In this document: positions 27,076 to 64,000 of the stretch, in pieces
Layout: each line of letters opens with the position of its first letter
Numbering within the stretch: position 1 is the first letter of the stretch
Assembly (NCBI RefSeq): GCF_003076475.1
Contig: NZ_CP020919.1
Span: forward strand, 2,728,001 to 2,792,000
Origin: Flavobacterium kingsejongi
Lineage (GTDB): Bacteria > Bacteroidota > Bacteroidia > Flavobacteriales > Flavobacteriaceae
Length of the DNA stretch: 64,000 bases
Direction of reading: 5' to 3'
Notes under the pieces: generated by a model
Told to the model about the DNA's origin: nothing
The model's input: only the letters and a program-made list of their open reading frames with translations
The model's database searches: none
Position numbers and translations under genes: made by a program

Positions 27076-27582
27076 ATGGGAAATTATAAAAACCTCAGCA
27101 ATGAAGAAGCGATTGCCAAACTGAAAAAACTGGCAGAAGATATTAAAGTATGTATGTTCTGTACCGAACTTACAAAAGCTCCTTTTTCCACACGCCCTAT
27201 GAACCTGCAGGAAGTAGATGCTGCCGGAAATTTATGGTTCATCAGCGGCGCCGATAGCGATAAGAATTTTGAAATCAAACAGGACGACAAAGTGCAGTTG
27301 CTGTTTGCCAAACTTTCGAGTTCGGAATATTTAAATATCTATGGACACGCCCATATCTACACCGATCAGTCTACGATTGAAGAGAAGTGGAGCCCAATGG
27401 CGAAGGCCTGGTTTAAAGATGGAAAAAAAGATCCTAATGTATCTATCATCAGGGTACAGCCGGAATATGTATATTATTGGGATACCAAAGACGGCATGAT
27501 GGTTTCATTGCTGAAAATAGCTGTAGCTGCCGTTACCGGAAAACAAATGGACGGTAGTATCGAAGGAAAGATCAGCGTATAA
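27076..27582 (+). CDS. Pyridoxamine 5'-phosphate oxidase-related stress protein (GSP26-like)
   Basis: A 168-residue flavin-binding split-barrel protein like general stress protein 26. Typical parts are KVCMFCTELTKAPFSTRPMNLQEVDAAGNLWFISGADSDKNFEI (about 24-67), VQLLFAKLSSSEYLNIYGHAHI and WSPMAKAWFKDGKKDPNVSIIRVQPEYVYYWDTKDGMM. It probably binds FMN or F420-like flavin; the reaction is unknown. It is the second gene of a two-gene unit with the SpoIIAA-like protein and ends at a strong terminator. Confidence 0.92.
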   Translation: MGNYKNLSNEEAIAKLKKLAEDIKVCMFCTELTKAPFSTRPMNLQEVDAAGNLWFISGADSDKNFEIKQDDKVQLLFAKLSSSEYLNIYGHAHIYTDQSTIEEKWSPMAKAWFKDGKKDPNVSIIRVQPEYVYYWDTKDGMMVSLLKIAVAAVTGKQMDGSIEGKISV

Positions 27583-27610
27583 CGAGTTCTTTTAGCCTAC
27601 ACATAAAATA

Positions 27611-27642
27611 AAAAAAGCTTCTGTCCCCACAGAAGCTTTTTT
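27611..27642. terminator. Bidirectional hairpin terminator
   Basis: AAAAAAGCTTCTGT and ACAGAAGCTTTTTT pair perfectly over 14 bp around a CCCC loop, between convergent genes. Confidence 0.93.
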
Positions 27643-27656
27643 AGTACCAATTACTT

Positions 27657-31563: not shown

Positions 31564-32160
31564 TCAGGCCTGTAATGCCATGATCATTTTCTGAGCCACC
31601 TGCATGGCTGATTTCAGCCCTGCCATATTCCCGGTTACTTTGGTAATCATAATGCCCCCTTCAATCACGGCGATAAATCCGTAAGCAAAAGCTGTTACAT
31701 CTTCTTCAGGTTTGAATTCCCCGTCCCGGATGCCCTCCGCTACAAGAGTAGCAATAGCAATTTGCCATTTCTCTATGGCGGAAGCCGCTTTTTTTCGCAA
31801 TTCGGGGTGGGTATCGTCGCTTTCGGTTGCTGTATTTAAAATGGGGCAGCCATACTGCAGGAGTGGATTGGTATGAAATCCGGCAAAGGTATCGAGATAG
31901 ACCTGTAGTTTTTCCGTAGCCGTATTCTTTTGGTGCATCTGCTGGATCATGTGCCTGCTGATCTGTCCGTAGTTGTAGTCAAAGGCAGCGAGTACTACTT
32001 CATCTTTGTTGCCAAAGTTGCCGTAAATACTACCCTTGGTTAATCCGGTAGCCACGGTCATATCATTCAGCGAAGTACCAGTAAAGCCTTTTTTATTAAA
32101 AATAGGCGCGGTCTTTTCAATGATGAACTGTTTCGTCTTTTCTGCTTTTGTCATAGTCAT
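31564..32160 (-). CDS. TetR/AcrR family transcriptional regulator
   Basis: A 198-residue repressor. The N-terminal HTH is clear: FNKKGFTGTSLNDMTVATGLTKGSIYGNFGNKDEVVLAAF (about residues 21-60). The ligand domain contains LLQYGCPILNTATE near residue 105, a Cys-containing pattern common in the NemR/YxaF-like subgroup, which may sense electrophiles or acyl compounds. Two starts, Met1 (32160) and Met3, are possible. Its own promoter has the operator at 32181-32196 between the -33 and -7 elements, so autorepression is expected. Likely controls the thiolase-thioesterase-SDR and fabF units. Confidence 0.94.
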   Translation of the reverse strand: MTMTKAEKTKQFIIEKTAPIFNKKGFTGTSLNDMTVATGLTKGSIYGNFGNKDEVVLAAFDYNYGQISRHMIQQMHQKNTATEKLQVYLDTFAGFHTNPLLQYGCPILNTATESDDTHPELRKKAASAIEKWQIAIATLVAEGIRDGEFKPEEDVTAFAYGFIAVIEGGIMITKVTGNMAGLKSAMQVAQKMIMALQA

Positions 32161-58535: not shown

Positions 58536-58620
58536 GGAGAAATGGCAGAGCGGTCGAATGCGGCAGTCTTGAAAACTGTTGACTGTAACAGGTCCGGGGG
58601 TTCGAATCCCTCTTTCTCCG
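58536..58620 (+). tRNA. tRNA-Ser (anticodon TGA)
   Basis: A class II cloverleaf of 85 nt: acceptor GGAGAAA/TTTCTCC with discriminator G at 58620, anticodon loop CTTGAAA with TGA at 58570-58572, a long variable arm, and T arm GGGGG-TTCGAAT-CCCTC. No CCA is encoded. Its 3' end is the probable attachment site of the adjoining prophage. Confidence 0.96.
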
Positions 58621-58626
58621 CACAAG

Positions 58627-58760: not shown

Positions 58761-59921
58761 ATGAATTCAATCTTCACAGTTCCAAAATTAGTTTCTTATC
58801 GAGAACCTGATAAGCAGTGGTTTATTTTTTTTAGATATCAAGGTAAATTGATCAAATACAAAAAAGGAATCAATTATATCAAAAATTTTAAAGAGAGATC
58901 TCTTGCTGCTAATGCGTTGAAATCTGCATTATATCAAAAGTTAAAGCAAGGATGGAATCCTCTTGTTCCCGAAATAGAAGCATTAGATCAGTCAATGACT
59001 TTGATTCAAGCAATTCATTTCGCATTGGAAAAGAAAAAACCTTTTTTGGCCCCTAAAAGCTATTCCGGGTATAAATGCACTGTGAACTTTATAGAGGCTG
59101 CTATAATTTCATTGAAACAACATAATCTCTTAATAAATGATGTAAAGCGTGTTCATATAAAAACTATTATTGAACAGGCGAGGAAGCAACGTAGCTGGTC
59201 GAACAACGCATACAATAAGCATCTTAATCAATTAAAAGCTATTTTGAGTGAATTGATCCAGTGGGATATAATAGAGAACAATCCAGCATTTAAAATTAAC
59301 AATTTACCTGTTGCAGAAACAAGATCTAATATCCCAGCAAGCTCTGCACAACAAAGCATAATACGGGATTCATTACAGAAAAACCATCCTGATTTTTATT
59401 TATTCATAATTACTATTTTTCATACCGGAATTAGACCACATGAAATTTTATTAATAACCCTTGAAATGGTTGACTTGAAAAATAATCAGATTATACTTCC
59501 GCATGAAATAACTAAAACCCAAAAAGAAAGAATAGTACCAATTAATCAACATTTAAAATTATATTTTGAGTTACTAAATTTACACCAATACCCGAAAGAT
59601 TATTACCTATTCGGTAGCTACAGAGAAGCTACCAAAGGTAATCTTGGAAAACATGATGATTTTATACCAGGTCCTACAAAGATAAAAAGGGATACTGCCA
59701 CTCGCAGGTGGGAGAAGTTGGTAAAAAAAGGATTAGGAATTGACGCAAACATGTATTCAAACAAACATGCAGGAGCTAATGCAAAGATTTTAGCAGGTAT
59801 TGATCTGGATGCATTAAGGGAATTGTATGGTCATACATCAAAGTTGATGACAACTAAATATGCCACTGTAATCAAGCAAGTAAACAGGCAGCAAATAATG
59901 GAAAAATCACCTGAATTTTAA
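58761..59921 (+). CDS. Tyrosine recombinase (phage integrase)
   Basis: A 386-residue integrase that inserts and excises the element at tRNA-Ser. The N-terminal part (SLAANALKSALYQKL) and core-binding helices precede the catalytic domain. Visible active-site positions: Arg in FHTGIRPHEILLI near residue 224, Lys in EITKTQKERIVPI near 255, the H/K box MYSNKHAGANAK near 332-343, and LYGHTSKLMTTKYATVIKQ with His and the nucleophile Tyr near 366. The box II His is Tyr and Arg is Lys here, as in many Bacteroidota integrases. The start follows the direct repeats at 58672. Confidence 0.95.
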   Translation: MNSIFTVPKLVSYREPDKQWFIFFRYQGKLIKYKKGINYIKNFKERSLAANALKSALYQKLKQGWNPLVPEIEALDQSMTLIQAIHFALEKKKPFLAPKSYSGYKCTVNFIEAAIISLKQHNLLINDVKRVHIKTIIEQARKQRSWSNNAYNKHLNQLKAILSELIQWDIIENNPAFKINNLPVAETRSNIPASSAQQSIIRDSLQKNHPDFYLFIITIFHTGIRPHEILLITLEMVDLKNNQIILPHEITKTQKERIVPINQHLKLYFELLNLHQYPKDYYLFGSYREATKGNLGKHDDFIPGPTKIKRDTATRRWEKLVKKGLGIDANMYSNKHAGANAKILAGIDLDALRELYGHTSKLMTTKYATVIKQVNRQQIMEKSPEF

Positions 59922-59938: not shown

Positions 59939-60457
59939 TTATGGGCGCATAATTCTGGAAATTCTATAAACTAAAAATCCAAGAGCAGCAATCGCACAAC
60001 ATCCACCAAAACACGAGAGCATCACAACCCATTTAGGCATATACTTCACAGGTATTTCCCGGGTATCTTTAATAATTTCTTTGGTATGCACTGTAGCATT
60101 GTTTATTGTAGTCTGATTATCTGTGGGTCCTACTTTAATTAAAGCACGTAGCTCTTTTAAGACATCATCGTACATCAATTGATATGAGTTGTCACCGGAT
60201 GATTTTGAAGAGTTTAGATTTGAAAGAATTTTACTCACTGCAGAATTCACAGCACTATCAAATTTTTGATCACCGGTTTGGCTTTGGGCAATTTTAAATT
60301 TCAAACTATCTATAATCGCTTTATTCCGCTCAATTGTTGTTAGACGGTCAGTATTTACAATTACTTCCTTTTGTTCTTCTCTTTTTTCCTTGACTACTTT
60401 AGTTGTGCCGCATCCAGTAGCGGTAATCAACATAAAAAAATATAATATATTTTTCAT
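59939..60457 (-). CDS. Candidate unimolecular spanin (lipoprotein with C-terminal membrane segment)
   Basis: A 172-residue protein. The N-terminus MKNILYFFMLITATGC is a lipoprotein signal with Cys16; residues 17-142 are polar, charged and helical; residues about 143-164 (WVVMLSCFGGCCAIAALGFL) form one membrane span, followed by a basic tail. A lipid-anchored N-terminus plus a C-terminal inner-membrane segment is the known topology of u-spanins (T1 gp11), which fuse inner and outer membranes at the end of lysis. It is last in the row endolysin, holin, this gene. No sequence match to T1 gp11 is claimed. An unrelated phage lipoprotein is the alternative. Confidence 0.7.
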   Translation of the reverse strand: MKNILYFFMLITATGCGTTKVVKEKREEQKEVIVNTDRLTTIERNKAIIDSLKFKIAQSQTGDQKFDSAVNSAVSKILSNLNSSKSSGDNSYQLMYDDVLKELRALIKVGPTDNQTTINNATVHTKEIIKDTREIPVKYMPKWVVMLSCFGGCCAIAALGFLVYRISRIMRP

Positions 60458-60468
60458 AATTTTTTTTA

Positions 60469-60852
60469 TTATCGTTTTACTTTATCGACAAGAGCATCAA
60501 TCAATTCTTTAGCTCCTAATTTCGCAGCATCAAATATTGCGACCAATACCTCTTCCATCTTTTTTTGTATTATTTTGCTATTGGAACTCATAAAAGCACA
60601 TATCGCATAAATCAAAAACTGTTTTAGATGAAAAAACTGATCGAATATTGCATACCCTATTATAGCTATGAAAAAACCGAATACAGCTTCTGACATGAAC
60701 CAAAAAAAAGTAAGCTTAGTTCCTGAGTAAATTCCTTTAATCACTCTTACGATTACCCCAAACATTACAAATAGTGAAAACATAAAGCCTTCTTTTATCT
60801 CCTGGGAGTAATCTTGCCATATTTGGGTTAAAAAATCTTTCATCCATTCCAA
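60469..60852 (-). CDS. Phage holin
   Basis: A 127-residue membrane protein with three hydrophobic spans at about 22-38, 48-70 and 76-90 and a charged, helical C-terminus (KKMEEVLVAIFDAAKLGAKEL). Size, three spans and position between the endolysin and a spanin-like gene fit a phage holin that forms the inner-membrane hole for endolysin release. It overlaps the endolysin gene by 13 bases. Met1 and Met4 are both in frame; a dual start as in lambda S is possible but the added residues carry an acid, so it is uncertain. Confidence 0.82.
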   Translation of the reverse strand: MEWMKDFLTQIWQDYSQEIKEGFMFSLFVMFGVIVRVIKGIYSGTKLTFFWFMSEAVFGFFIAIIGYAIFDQFFHLKQFLIYAICAFMSSNSKIIQKKMEEVLVAIFDAAKLGAKELIDALVDKVKR

Positions 60853-61217
60853 CGGGCTTTAGTCCCACGTATATCATAGTGAGTAAATGTCTTGTAAATT
60901 CCGATACCGCCCTGTTTCATTTTTCCGGAAGCAATTAATTTTTCAATTCTATCCGCAAGTTGCTTTGGTGTAAAACCTTTGGCGCGAATATCACCGGCAT
61001 TCCCTTTCGGATGTTGACTATTTAGAGCGCCACCTATCTTTTTATTGTAAGAAGGGGAACGGTACCCGCTATTGATGGTTATTGCCACACCGATATCCTC
61101 CCGAAGTACTTCCAAGTTGGCTACTAACTCAATGAGATGAGGTAATATTTCCTTAGGTGTTACGCTGCCATCGTGGCATTCAAATTCTTTTAGTGTAAAA
61201 TGTTCTGATAAATTCAT
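60840..61217 (-). CDS. Phage endolysin, M15 peptidase (D-Ala-D-Ala type)
   Basis: A 125-residue single-domain zinc peptidase of family M15 (Peptidase_M15_3). SGYRSPSYN near residue 50, then SQHPKGNAGDI with His and Asp zinc ligands near 67-75, and HYDIRG with the third His near 113. It cuts peptide cross-links of the host wall. It has no signal peptide, so it needs the holin. It lies 11 bases after the tail protein gene and overlaps the holin start. Confidence 0.92.
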   Translation of the reverse strand: MNLSEHFTLKEFECHDGSVTPKEILPHLIELVANLEVLREDIGVAITINSGYRSPSYNKKIGGALNSQHPKGNAGDIRAKGFTPKQLADRIEKLIASGKMKQGGIGIYKTFTHYDIRGTKARWNG

Positions 61218-61228
61218 TGATAAAGGTT

Positions 61229-64000
61229 TTAGGTTAGTAATGCATTTGGTAAGGGAGCTCGAAGTCTGTAAACATTGGCCGTAGGTTCATAGGTGACATC
61301 CTGAACGCGGATGTGAACCATGTTATCTTGAATGTAACAGCCGACTAATCCTTTAATAGAGATTTCGTAATCGGTTAATGAGATTCGGATAAATTTCTCA
61401 GGATCCAAAATCCCACTTGGAATAGTTCCGATTACTACATACGCATTAGTTGAACCAAGTCCGGTTTGGGTGATGTTGATATCCAGGATAAACGTGTTTT
61501 CCTTAACGCGATATCTGAAAGCGTTTACTGTGAAGTTGCCCGGCAGATTGGTTGGAGTTAAGTTTGTCCAGGCGAAATCCTTTTTTAGAATTACTTGACC
61601 AAGATTAACCGCATGATCTTGCATAATTGCAGCAGGCACCGATACCGGTCTCTGATAATAGCAGTATCCGTCAGGGTGTATACTGTGTACCAAAAGATTA
61701 GGGCTGTTCTGATCAACTCGGACAATCGTATCAAAAGTGCCTGTGAAGCTATAGTTGGCAACCAATAAATGCTCTCGGGTATCAGGATTACCTATAGTAT
61801 TTCGAAAAACTAATATACCTGTCCTCAGCGATGCAGAGCTCACTTCAGTATTAGTTCTTATTGATCCGACGACGTCGAGCTTGACTGCAGGATTAACAGT
61901 CCCCAATCCCCAGTTTCCGTCCGGATTACAATACATTTCGGGAACATAAGAACCTGAGCTGTTACTAATTTGCCTGCTAATAGCAAAATCCCCATATGCT
62001 TGGGAATCTCCCTGAACAGACCAAGACCGGGAATCCGTTGCATTAGGATTCGCGATTGTTTTTAAAACTGGCGCGACAATAGAGTTTGTAGTCCTTAATT
62101 CGTTTTCAAATATTTTTTGACCTTGTATAGTTTGGTTGCCTGTGGTTCTTACCGTCCCCGGATCAGGGTTGGTCGAAGTAAAAATGGTACCTAATTGTAC
62201 GCTATCCACCATTGCTTTTAATTGGCTCCCGTCCCATCCAATACGGATAAGATTCCCACCCCAACCGGGAAAGCCTCCGGACACTACCTGTTGCTCATTC
62301 ATTACCTGATTCAATCCCAGGTATGTTTTTACAGAAATAGCATTTGCCGGAATCCACTTTGAAGTATTGAGGCTTCTGGCCATGATCAAACTGATATCAC
62401 CCACAGCTGCAGGGGTATCTTCATAGGGAACGCCTCCAAGCCCATTGGATTGTACTGAAACAATGTTCCATATTGATCCCGGAATCGCATTGCCGCCGTT
62501 CGTATCAACTTTGTTTGCTTGCAAAGTATTGATCGAGTTGTATTGCGCCAAATTAACATCGTCGATCCCATTAAGGTAAGATTGCAAGCCGGTGATGTTT
62601 CCGATTGATAGTATTACAGAAGATATCGGATGCCCCTCAGTATCGCGGAGTTCTAATAAATAAGGGTTGCCGCCATTAAACGCAATGCTTTTTGCCAGGT
62701 TAGAAACAAATGCCGACACGGGTACCTCCGATAGTATTTCCCCAGCATCATTTCTTAGCTCCAACATTTCCGTCGCATCATTATAAAAGAAAGTCGTGCC
62801 CTCATTATTTAAAAAAGCAACGTTCAATGTGGCCAGAGTGTCTCCGGAACCATTTTGCAAATAGACTTCCTGTGCTGCTTGGTTAGCTATCAGGTTCAAC
62901 CCATTGATATTATCATATATGTCGGCTAAAAGGGCTATATCCCCATTTTTATTTTGAAATGACTGATTTTTATTTCCGGTGAATCCACCAGAAATCCCGG
63001 CTATATTTAATGTACCAGCACCTTTTGCGATTTGAATTAAATTTCTTCTTACTCCGATGTATTCATTTCCACTATTTGCCTGGGCAAATACCCCATTACC
63101 AGTAATGGTTGTGTGAGATCCGGTTCCTGTGAATTCAGCTGTTTTTGTTGTTGTACTTCCGGCTGTTAATACACTTTCTAAATTTTGAGTACCATTAGAT
63201 AATAATTCCAGTCTATTTTGCCCTGCTGAATACCTATACTGAGCAATACCACCGGCCGGTATAGAAATATCCCCCATCCAGTTGTTAAAAAATTTAACAA
63301 AATCACCGGCAAAATTATTACGTATTATCAGATTAGCGGTTCCAGAATTTATATAAGTAAAAACAATACCGTCGTAGATATTATCTGGATCACCATTGAA
63401 ATACATGCCCGTAATCTGGGTAGTATTATTTGTAAATCGGATTGTAGTTTTTTGATAAAAGTTTACTGCCCCGTAGTTTCCGGAAACTGCAAATATTTGT
63501 TCGCCTTTTTCAGATTTCGGAATATAGAAAACACCAATTTCAGGATCGGTAGGATCACTTATATTTGAATCCGAAATTAACAATTCTGTAACTAAGACAG
63601 TATTGAAGGGTATATTGGGTCTTAAAGCAATGCCATTTCTTTCCAAACCAGTTATTCTTACAAGCTGAGATGCTGTATTTAAAACGATGATATCTCTTCT
63701 TATTTTCCCAGTCTCACATAATGGAATAGGAATAGCAGTTTCTATTAAAGTAGAATATATTATGTTGTTTATTGAACCTTGAAGTGGCGGAACTTTTAAC
63801 TCATTTTCATCTAAATATATTTCCCCATCTATTGAAATCAATCTATTGTAGGCACCTTGATTAACAGCAGAAATGATCTTTTGTATTTCTAAGCTTTCTG
63901 AGACCCCATCTTTAGAAACATGAAATTTAGAATGAGGATCAATTGTTATTTGTTCCGGAAGTTCTTCAATCCTTTTTGCATTAATTGTTATTGCATTAAG
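61229..64000 (-). CDS. Phage tail / fiber protein (5' end outside window)
   Basis: At least 923 residues. A start codon listed at 63841 is not real: the frame stays open to the window edge, adding 53 codons (IEELPEQITIDPHSKFHVSKDGVSESL). The sequence is Asn, Gly and Thr rich, with many short strands and IGNITGLQSYLNGI-like segments, typical of tail or baseplate fiber proteins, and with KLDVVGSIRTNTEVSSASLR and GNWGLGTVNPA near the C-terminal third, which recur in tail-fiber beta-helix regions. It probably recognises the host surface. It is the last structural gene before lysis. Confidence 0.82.
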   Translation of the reverse strand, partial: LNAITINAKRIEELPEQITIDPHSKFHVSKDGVSESLEIQKIISAVNQGAYNRLISIDGEIYLDENELKVPPLQGSINNIIYSTLIETAIPIPLCETGKIRRDIIVLNTASQLVRITGLERNGIALRPNIPFNTVLVTELLISDSNISDPTDPEIGVFYIPKSEKGEQIFAVSGNYGAVNFYQKTTIRFTNNTTQITGMYFNGDPDNIYDGIVFTYINSGTANLIIRNNFAGDFVKFFNNWMGDISIPAGGIAQYRYSAGQNRLELLSNGTQNLESVLTAGSTTTKTAEFTGTGSHTTITGNGVFAQANSGNEYIGVRRNLIQIAKGAGTLNIAGISGGFTGNKNQSFQNKNGDIALLADIYDNINGLNLIANQAAQEVYLQNGSGDTLATLNVAFLNNEGTTFFYNDATEMLELRNDAGEILSEVPVSAFVSNLAKSIAFNGGNPYLLELRDTEGHPISSVILSIGNITGLQSYLNGIDDVNLAQYNSINTLQANKVDTNGGNAIPGSIWNIVSVQSNGLGGVPYEDTPAAVGDISLIMARSLNTSKWIPANAISVKTYLGLNQVMNEQQVVSGGFPGWGGNLIRIGWDGSQLKAMVDSVQLGTIFTSTNPDPGTVRTTGNQTIQGQKIFENELRTTNSIVAPVLKTIANPNATDSRSWSVQGDSQAYGDFAISRQISNSSGSYVPEMYCNPDGNWGLGTVNPAVKLDVVGSIRTNTEVSSASLRTGILVFRNTIGNPDTREHLLVANYSFTGTFDTIVRVDQNSPNLLVHSIHPDGYCYYQRPVSVPAAIMQDHAVNLGQVILKKDFAWTNLTPTNLPGNFTVNAFRYRVKENTFILDINITQTGLGSTNAYVVIGTIPSGILDPEKFIRISLTDYEISIKGLVGCYIQDNMVHIRVQDVTYEPTANVYRLRAPLPNALLT

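Follow-up and report, generated by a model that had tools for sequence, protein, structure and literature searches.

A putative unimolecular spanin of a new sequence family in the lysis cassette of a Flavobacterium kingsejongi prophage

Does the last gene of a prophage lysis cassette in Flavobacterium kingsejongi encode a unimolecular spanin (u-spanin), the single-protein factor that would act on the outer membrane at lysis? The gene lies in a stretch of 64,000 nucleotides (the window; NZ_CP020919.1, positions 2,728,001 to 2,792,000) of a 4.22-Mb genome that consists of one contig. Its open reading frame starts with ATG on the minus strand, codes for 172 residues and is transcribed after an M15 endolysin gene and a holin-like gene, with a gap of 11 bp to the latter (Table 1). 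A sequence-only reading had called the product a possible u-spanin on account of its topology and gene order. It was right about the coordinates, Cys16, the membrane segment and the order of the genes; the strand was missing from it. We conclude that the 172-residue protein is very probably a u-spanin, for which membrane fusion would be the activity.

The N terminus of the protein, MKNILYFFMLITATGC, is a short basic-hydrophobic run that closes with A-T-G-Cys16. At the C-terminal end, a single hydrophobic segment (the best 19 residues start at residue 145 and score 2.25 in hydropathy) is followed by the basic tail YRISRIMRP. Both the lipoprotein signal and the C-terminal span are thus present by simple rules and in a structure model. 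There is no periplasmic cysteine, the three further Cys residues (149, 153 and 154) all being located within the membrane segment.

Relatives of the protein share this layout. The family set comprises 54 distinct proteins including the window's own, with identical proteins counted once; four partial matches (L028, L030, L032 and L033), L029 (32.7 bits) and L106-L108 (28-36 bits) were left out. A topology rule of a lipobox, a single C-terminal span and no other span holds for 52 of the 54, the window protein among them, and for 3 of 2,700 shuffled family proteins. Among 119 called open reading frames (the window, L118, L119 and L070) it selects two, both of them copies of the u-spanin gene, and among 350 from 400 kb of the same genome, where later starts were tried too, one, an 84-residue reading from a later start. 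The candidate lipid Cys is preceded at -1 by G, S, A, N or C in every member, and in all 54 the tail past the membrane segment carries a net positive charge. According to the positive-inside rule, a net-positive tail places the C terminus in the cytoplasm. In all 31 aligned rows the lipid Cys, D50, L78, N82, K85, S87, G88, N90 and T112 are invariant, and a K-x-SG-x-N motif is found in 51 of the 54 proteins. The family is under purifying selection, the ratio of non-synonymous to synonymous substitution rates (dN/dS) being 0.055-0.19 in the nine of eleven tested pairs with finite dS, one of them near saturation (dS 2.99). At the level of sequence, the u-spanin assignment is carried by the lipobox, a basic stretch behind it, a periplasmic part of about 125 residues, the one C-terminal span with its basic tail, the position in the cassette and selection.

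Homologues are found in lysis contexts and not, as would have spoken against the sequence-only reading, solely outside them. We surveyed same-strand neighbours within 3 kb, although most loci cover only about 1.5 kb per side; the reference proteins were drawn from the same loci, and several are backed by Pfam or PHROGs. An endolysin- or holin-type gene lies near the u-spanin gene in 51 of the 54 loci. Endolysin-type genes occur in 46, holin-type genes in 28, a single-span coiled-coil protein in 19 and DUF5675 in 3; 41 loci combine an endolysin-type gene with either a holin gene or the coiled-coil one. Five of the 51 (L006, L010, L063, L064 and L102) depend on the M23 reference alone, which includes a peptidoglycan-binding part where some of its matches fall, and L099 has none of the surveyed lysis-type neighbours. 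The class of the neighbouring enzyme varies (M15, GH19, amidase-2, amidase-3 and N-acetylmuramidase), as does the type of holin. That the u-spanin gene is kept while the enzymes change fits the prediction for a general outer-membrane lysis factor.

These neighbourhoods also bear on whether the gene could instead encode a lipoprotein with no part in lysis, for instance a superinfection exclusion or lysogenic conversion gene at the attachment end of a prophage. The product is indeed an envelope lipoprotein, and its gene adjoins an integrase gene in the window, at a second copy of the cassette and in L019 (the latter two integrases were named by eye). However, the gene is co-directional and nearly contiguous with those of the holin and the endolysin, lysis-type neighbours occur in 51 of the 54 loci, and the C-terminal span with its basic tail is conserved. 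In 34 of the 40 listed loci a same-strand gene follows within 200 bases, so that the element mostly continues beyond the u-spanin gene. We regard a role outside lysis as very unlikely.

Another possibility is that the protein is an o-spanin, the outer-membrane half of a two-component spanin whose inner-membrane half (i-spanin) has escaped recognition. The single-span coiled-coil protein that lies near the u-spanin gene in 19 of the 54 loci (for example L004 2035-2337, L023 2043-2399 and L024 1988-2323), which carries a C-terminal Cys in some members, is superficially i-spanin-like. The basic residues behind its one N-terminal span suggest that the coiled coil is cytoplasmic; no such protein was found in the window cassette, which holds only the holin, endolysin and u-spanin genes; and in none of the 54 loci does the coiled-coil protein occur together with the holin-type references, so that it looks like a replacement for the holin. 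Moreover, an o-spanin needs no C-terminal span, yet the span is conserved. The two-component arrangement is thus highly improbable, and we consider the coiled-coil protein a candidate for a holin, or else a regulator of lysis, not so far recognised in Bacteroidota phages. By eye only, proteins of the phages 11b (27215-27652) and Arctus_1 (L110 2539-2895) resemble it.

The predicted fold is in line with a u-spanin. With 31 alignment rows, AlphaFold modelled the whole protein at a mean predicted local distance difference test score (pLDDT) of 70.1 and a predicted template modelling score (pTM) of 0.38, with a signal helix at 2-14, a disordered linker at 17-38, a domain of high confidence at about 40-117, a loosely structured part at 120-136 and a helix at 142-170. 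Residues 36-120 alone reached a mean pLDDT of 91.4, with two strands, a helix and four further strands in this order. No known fold stood out clearly when this domain was compared with the PDB and BFVD. In the published account of the T1 gp11 family, a short helix precedes four or more strands, and u-spanins are argued to be distinct from the helical two-component spanins (PMC6139136). The modelled periplasmic domain matches this T1 gp11 pattern, as compared with the text description.

Topology and beta-rich domain, both as in u-spanins, also weigh against a third alternative, in which the lysis-cassette protein has some other role, such as control of holin timing or tethering of a peptidoglycan enzyme. 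The u-spanin assignment is based on neighbourhood and topology, and no functional test of the family was found in the literature searched. A diderm host, however, requires an outer-membrane step, and no other candidate for it is seen in the cassette, on whose coding strand no second lipoprotein-like reading frame of at least 20 residues was found by eye. Such a different role within lysis therefore has very little probability.

How does the putative u-spanin compare with known ones? A catalogue of 58 u-spanins from 2018 includes in its Table 5 the phages 11b and FCL-2, along with several phi-numbered phages, RAP44 and P12053L (PMC6139136). According to their sequence records, 11b and FCL-2 are Flavobacterium phages. 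The hosts of the phi-numbered phages, RAP44 and P12053L are Cellulophaga, Riemerella and a marine flavobacterium. In Cellulophaga phages, a u-spanin has been annotated for Ingeline and a potential one for Nekkels (PMC8776804), and a 2025 survey states that Bacteroidetes phages use unimolecular spanins exclusively (PMC12596118). Given these published cases and the Bacteroidetes-wide statement, the presence of a u-spanin gene in a prophage of Flavobacterium is to be expected. The earlier claim that no such gene is commonly named in Flavobacterium phages holds for GenBank, where the candidate u-spanin genes in the records of 11b and Ingeline_1 are annotated 'hypothetical protein', but not for the literature, where 11b and FCL-2 are listed. 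The u-spanin reading itself finds good support in the topology, the synteny, the conservation and the fold prediction, whereas the argument for novelty fails, as Flavobacterium u-spanins had already been catalogued.

With T1 gp11 (PMC6139136) the window protein shares the lipobox, the single C-terminal span, the last position in the lysis cassette and the lack of periplasmic Cys. In both, the periplasmic part is beta-rich, a short helix being followed by four strands; in the modelled window domain, two strands also come before the helix. The two differ in sequence: at E <= 1, tblastn gave no match of the window protein to T1 gp11 in 50,697 phage records that include T1, and the identity that delimits the T1 gp11 family (at least 40% over 40% of the periplasmic part) is not reached in this search. 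All but two members of the T1 family are accompanied by a pinholin and a signal-arrest-release (SAR) endolysin (PMC6139136), whereas the M15 endolysin of the window has, by eye, no N-terminal signal or span. Lambda Rz/Rz1 shares the proposed end result, fusion of the inner and outer membranes, but consists of two proteins, with a helical i-spanin whose span is N-terminal and which has no visible counterpart in the window cassette.

Further candidates come from phages of related hosts. We scored them with the family profile (A6) among seven proteins picked by hand, the small set to which the E values refer. The u-spanin of 11b is a singleton in the catalogue (PMC6139136, Table 5). Its candidate gene (NC_006356 28129-28593) stands directly after a GH19 endolysin gene and, like that of the window, belongs to a Flavobacterium phage and encodes a lipobox (FSC) with basic residues behind it and a C-terminal span; the protein scores 18.1 bits (E 7e-7) and lacks the SGDN motif. 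On its sequence it would be at most a distant relative of the window family. A 'hypothetical protein' of the Leeuwenhoekiella phage Arctus_1 (PP314354 36216-36755), encoded one gene away from a lysozyme gene, likewise has a lipobox (GGC) and a C-terminal span and scores 17.6 bits (E 1e-6). Distant kinship of the window family with the 11b and Arctus_1 proteins is possible, to judge by these profile scores. The Ingeline candidate (MT732435 32052-32525) has the lipobox TTSC and a C-terminal span and scores 6.9 bits (E 0.002); a DUF5675 gene precedes it, an arrangement also seen in L017 and L018. In three loci a DUF5675 gene (PF18925) is placed directly before the u-spanin or candidate gene: L017 5534-5962 (E 2.6e-20), L018 5573-5995 (E 2.1e-22) and L114 of Ingeline_1 31621-32052 (E 1.7e-20). 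Because it is located where other loci hold an endolysin or holin, DUF5675 may be a lysis enzyme.

A lipoprotein that is to span the periplasm of a Bacteroidota host faces a particular sorting problem. Acidic residues right after the lipid Cys direct lipoproteins of this phylum to the cell surface; the export motif of Capnocytophaga is K-(D/E)2 or Q-A-(D/E)2, and SusD homologues of F. johnsoniae yield the consensus SDDFE (PMC5080379). At positions +2 to +6 after the Cys, D and E are absent from all 54 family proteins and K or R is present in every one, a uniformity that reflects conservation by shared descent and not 54 independent events. The 400-kb genome sample has 24 lipoprotein-like reading frames, of which 12 show D or E at these positions and 6 are basic without an acidic residue. 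The surface-export signal is absent from the family, as a spanin would require. Since the candidates of Ingeline (IGLKD) and Arctus_1 (RSKKE) each carry a single acid, at +6, the strict acid-free rule is particular to the window family.

Family members were sought in genomes at several levels of relatedness. In genome counts that include the window's genome, each search having scored a limited number of candidates, matches were obtained in 11 of 100 related genomes (E <= 0.01), in 40 of 398 at genus level (E <= 1e-6), in 16 of 395 at order level (E <= 0.001; near full length in G000, G123, G278, G303 and G263, partial in the others) and in 2 of 295 at class level, both Flavobacterium. Twenty loci are on genome contigs, 14 of them labelled Flavobacterium, 3 'Flavobacteriaceae bacterium', 2 'Flavobacteriia bacterium' and 1 'Bacteroidetes bacterium'. 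A search of IMG/VR with the window protein alone gave no match, while four alignment scans retrieved 6, 11, 7 and 3 loci, some of them shared between scans, the last three being the more distant L106-L108. These three (L107 3957-4472, L108 4480-4980 and L106 5560-6138) encode lipobox proteins with YIPWWVKILAWIG before or in the C-terminal span, very similar to the counterpart stretch in part of the u-spanin family; from adjoining genes, two of the contigs are presumably crAss-like. No match to four family members was found by tblastn in the 50,697 phage records (E limits 1, 0.1, 0.1 and 0.01), of which those nearest the source genome were possibly skipped, and no description of this sequence family was found in the literature searched.

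According to the catalogue, none of its 58 u-spanins has a periplasmic cysteine (PMC6139136). The window family has none in 35 of its 54 members, but 19 carry one or two (10 with a CDSxC motif and 9 with a single Cys), and CDSxC is located at the start of the helix. What is new is therefore the sequence family, without a match in the phage records, and these cysteines, unlike the catalogued u-spanins; the gene is mostly an ordinary find, a known kind of protein in a new sequence family.

Table 1. Positions of the lysis-cassette and prophage features in window coordinates.
Feature	Position	Strand	Basis
Putative u-spanin gene, 172 residues	59939..60457	-	family with invariant lipobox Cys, K-x-SG-x-N, topology, purifying selection
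Lipoprotein signal peptide, residues 1-15	60413..60457	-	sequence; AlphaFold helix 2-14
Lipobox A-T-G-Cys16	60410..60421 (Cys codon 60410-60412)	-	Cys16 column invariant in 31-row alignment
Predicted beta-rich periplasmic domain, residues 38-119	60101..60346	-	AlphaFold, residues 36-120 alone
C-terminal membrane segment, about residues 142-165, then basic tail	59963..60034	-	hydropathy; AlphaFold helix 142-170
Holin-like gene, perhaps LydA/holin superfamily III type	60469..60852	-	weak: phrog_175 holin E 0.0073
Endolysin gene, peptidase M15	60840..61217	-	phrog_894 endolysin E 1.9e-34; PF08291 E 1.2e-18
Probable tail fibre gene, just upstream of cassette	61229..63841	-	BppL_N E 1.1e-4 (below curated cut-off); position
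Tyrosine integrase gene, convergent with cassette	58761..59921	+	PF00589 E 5.7e-13; phrog_1 E 5.3e-37
tRNA-Ser(TGA) adjoining integrase, likely attachment site	58536..58621	+	attachment site from position only
Tape-measure-like gene, past window end	68901-71528		phrog_4211 E 1.8e-9
Mutator-family transposase gene interrupting prophage	71597-72808		
Mu-type transposase gene interrupting prophage	79841-81388		
Terminase large subunit gene, past window end	87480-88970		phrog_979 E 4.8e-101, PF03237

The cassette belongs to a tailed prophage, since genes for a terminase large subunit and a tape-measure-like protein lie past the window end. PF16083 is matched by relatives of the holin-like gene in L003 (1.5e-5) and L014 (0.0017), in both cases below the curated cut-off. 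The probable tail fibre reading frame reaches 64051 once the sequence past the window end is added, and has no PHROG match at E <= 1. A genome-wide search for 22 bases of the 3' end of tRNA-Ser, with one mismatch allowed, turned up no second copy. Host-like genes at 72940-79629 (by eye) and two transposase genes interrupt the prophage, and a second copy of the Mu-type transposase gene's pair is found near 93641-95942 (by eye). As a consequence, the prophage is rearranged by insertion sequences and may be defective.

The second copy of the cassette is located at 4.21 Mb of the same genome, beside a different integrase. Its endolysin and holin are each identical at the protein level to those of the window, and comparison of the two u-spanin genes (the second at L002 1501-2028) over 516 nucleotides shows 39 differences, of which the last 121 nucleotides account for 27. 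This difference-rich 3' end adjoins the integrase, and the character of the membrane segment is kept nonetheless. The divergence perhaps results from recombination at an integrase exchange.

Family members also occur inside small Flavobacterium gene clusters (L066, G013:C6; L067, G033:C13; L068, G004:C4; L069, G051:C1) that combine many small proteins bearing N-terminal hydrophobic segments with a lysis cassette. L066 encodes a DnaC-like helicase loader and L067 an ArdC-N/metallopeptidase/AAA fusion protein. A tyrosine integrase gene lies in the stretch in three of the four (L066, where it is several kb off, L067 and L068), and no tail, portal or terminase genes were recognised. Among 14 cluster proteins besides the integrases, PHROGs and/or Pfam gave no terminase, portal or capsid family; a lysozyme-like protein (L067 10861-11340) matches tail and head PHROGs too. 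The clusters may be tailless proviruses.

According to the same catalogue, there are as yet no physiological or biochemical data on how u-spanins work (PMC6139136). For the window protein, we propose that cleavage by signal peptidase II and acylation would leave the N terminus anchored to the outer membrane, in its inner leaflet. Lacking the acidic export signal, the protein would escape flipping to the cell surface and remain on the periplasmic side, while its C-terminal helix would reside in the inner membrane in an N-out/C-in orientation. The flexible linkers (about 17-38 and 120-136) and the folded domain of two strands, a helix and four strands would bridge the periplasm, enclosed in the peptidoglycan mesh. 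After the inner membrane has been opened by the holin and the peptidoglycan cleaved by the M15 enzyme, the u-spanin molecules would be released; they could then move, change shape or cluster and so draw the membranes together. The outer membrane would be disrupted as a result, probably by fusion with the inner membrane.

More tentatively, and with rather less than even confidence, we suggest that Flavobacterium prophages carry a distinct structural class of u-spanin, exchanged as a module between tailed prophages and small elements. It would be characterized by the compact domain, the K-x-SG-x-N motif, a basic stretch after the Cys that avoids surface flipping and a CDSxC subgroup that is perhaps stapled by a disulfide. 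For studies of the u-spanin mechanism, the family offers a well-predicted periplasmic domain, more than 50 natural variants and nearly invariant residues. Its hosts have a known signal for lipoprotein surface flipping, which makes it testable whether a Bacteroidota u-spanin must avoid the export signal to work, and the Cys-bearing subgroup can be used to probe whether, as stated, u-spanins dispense with cysteines in the periplasm.
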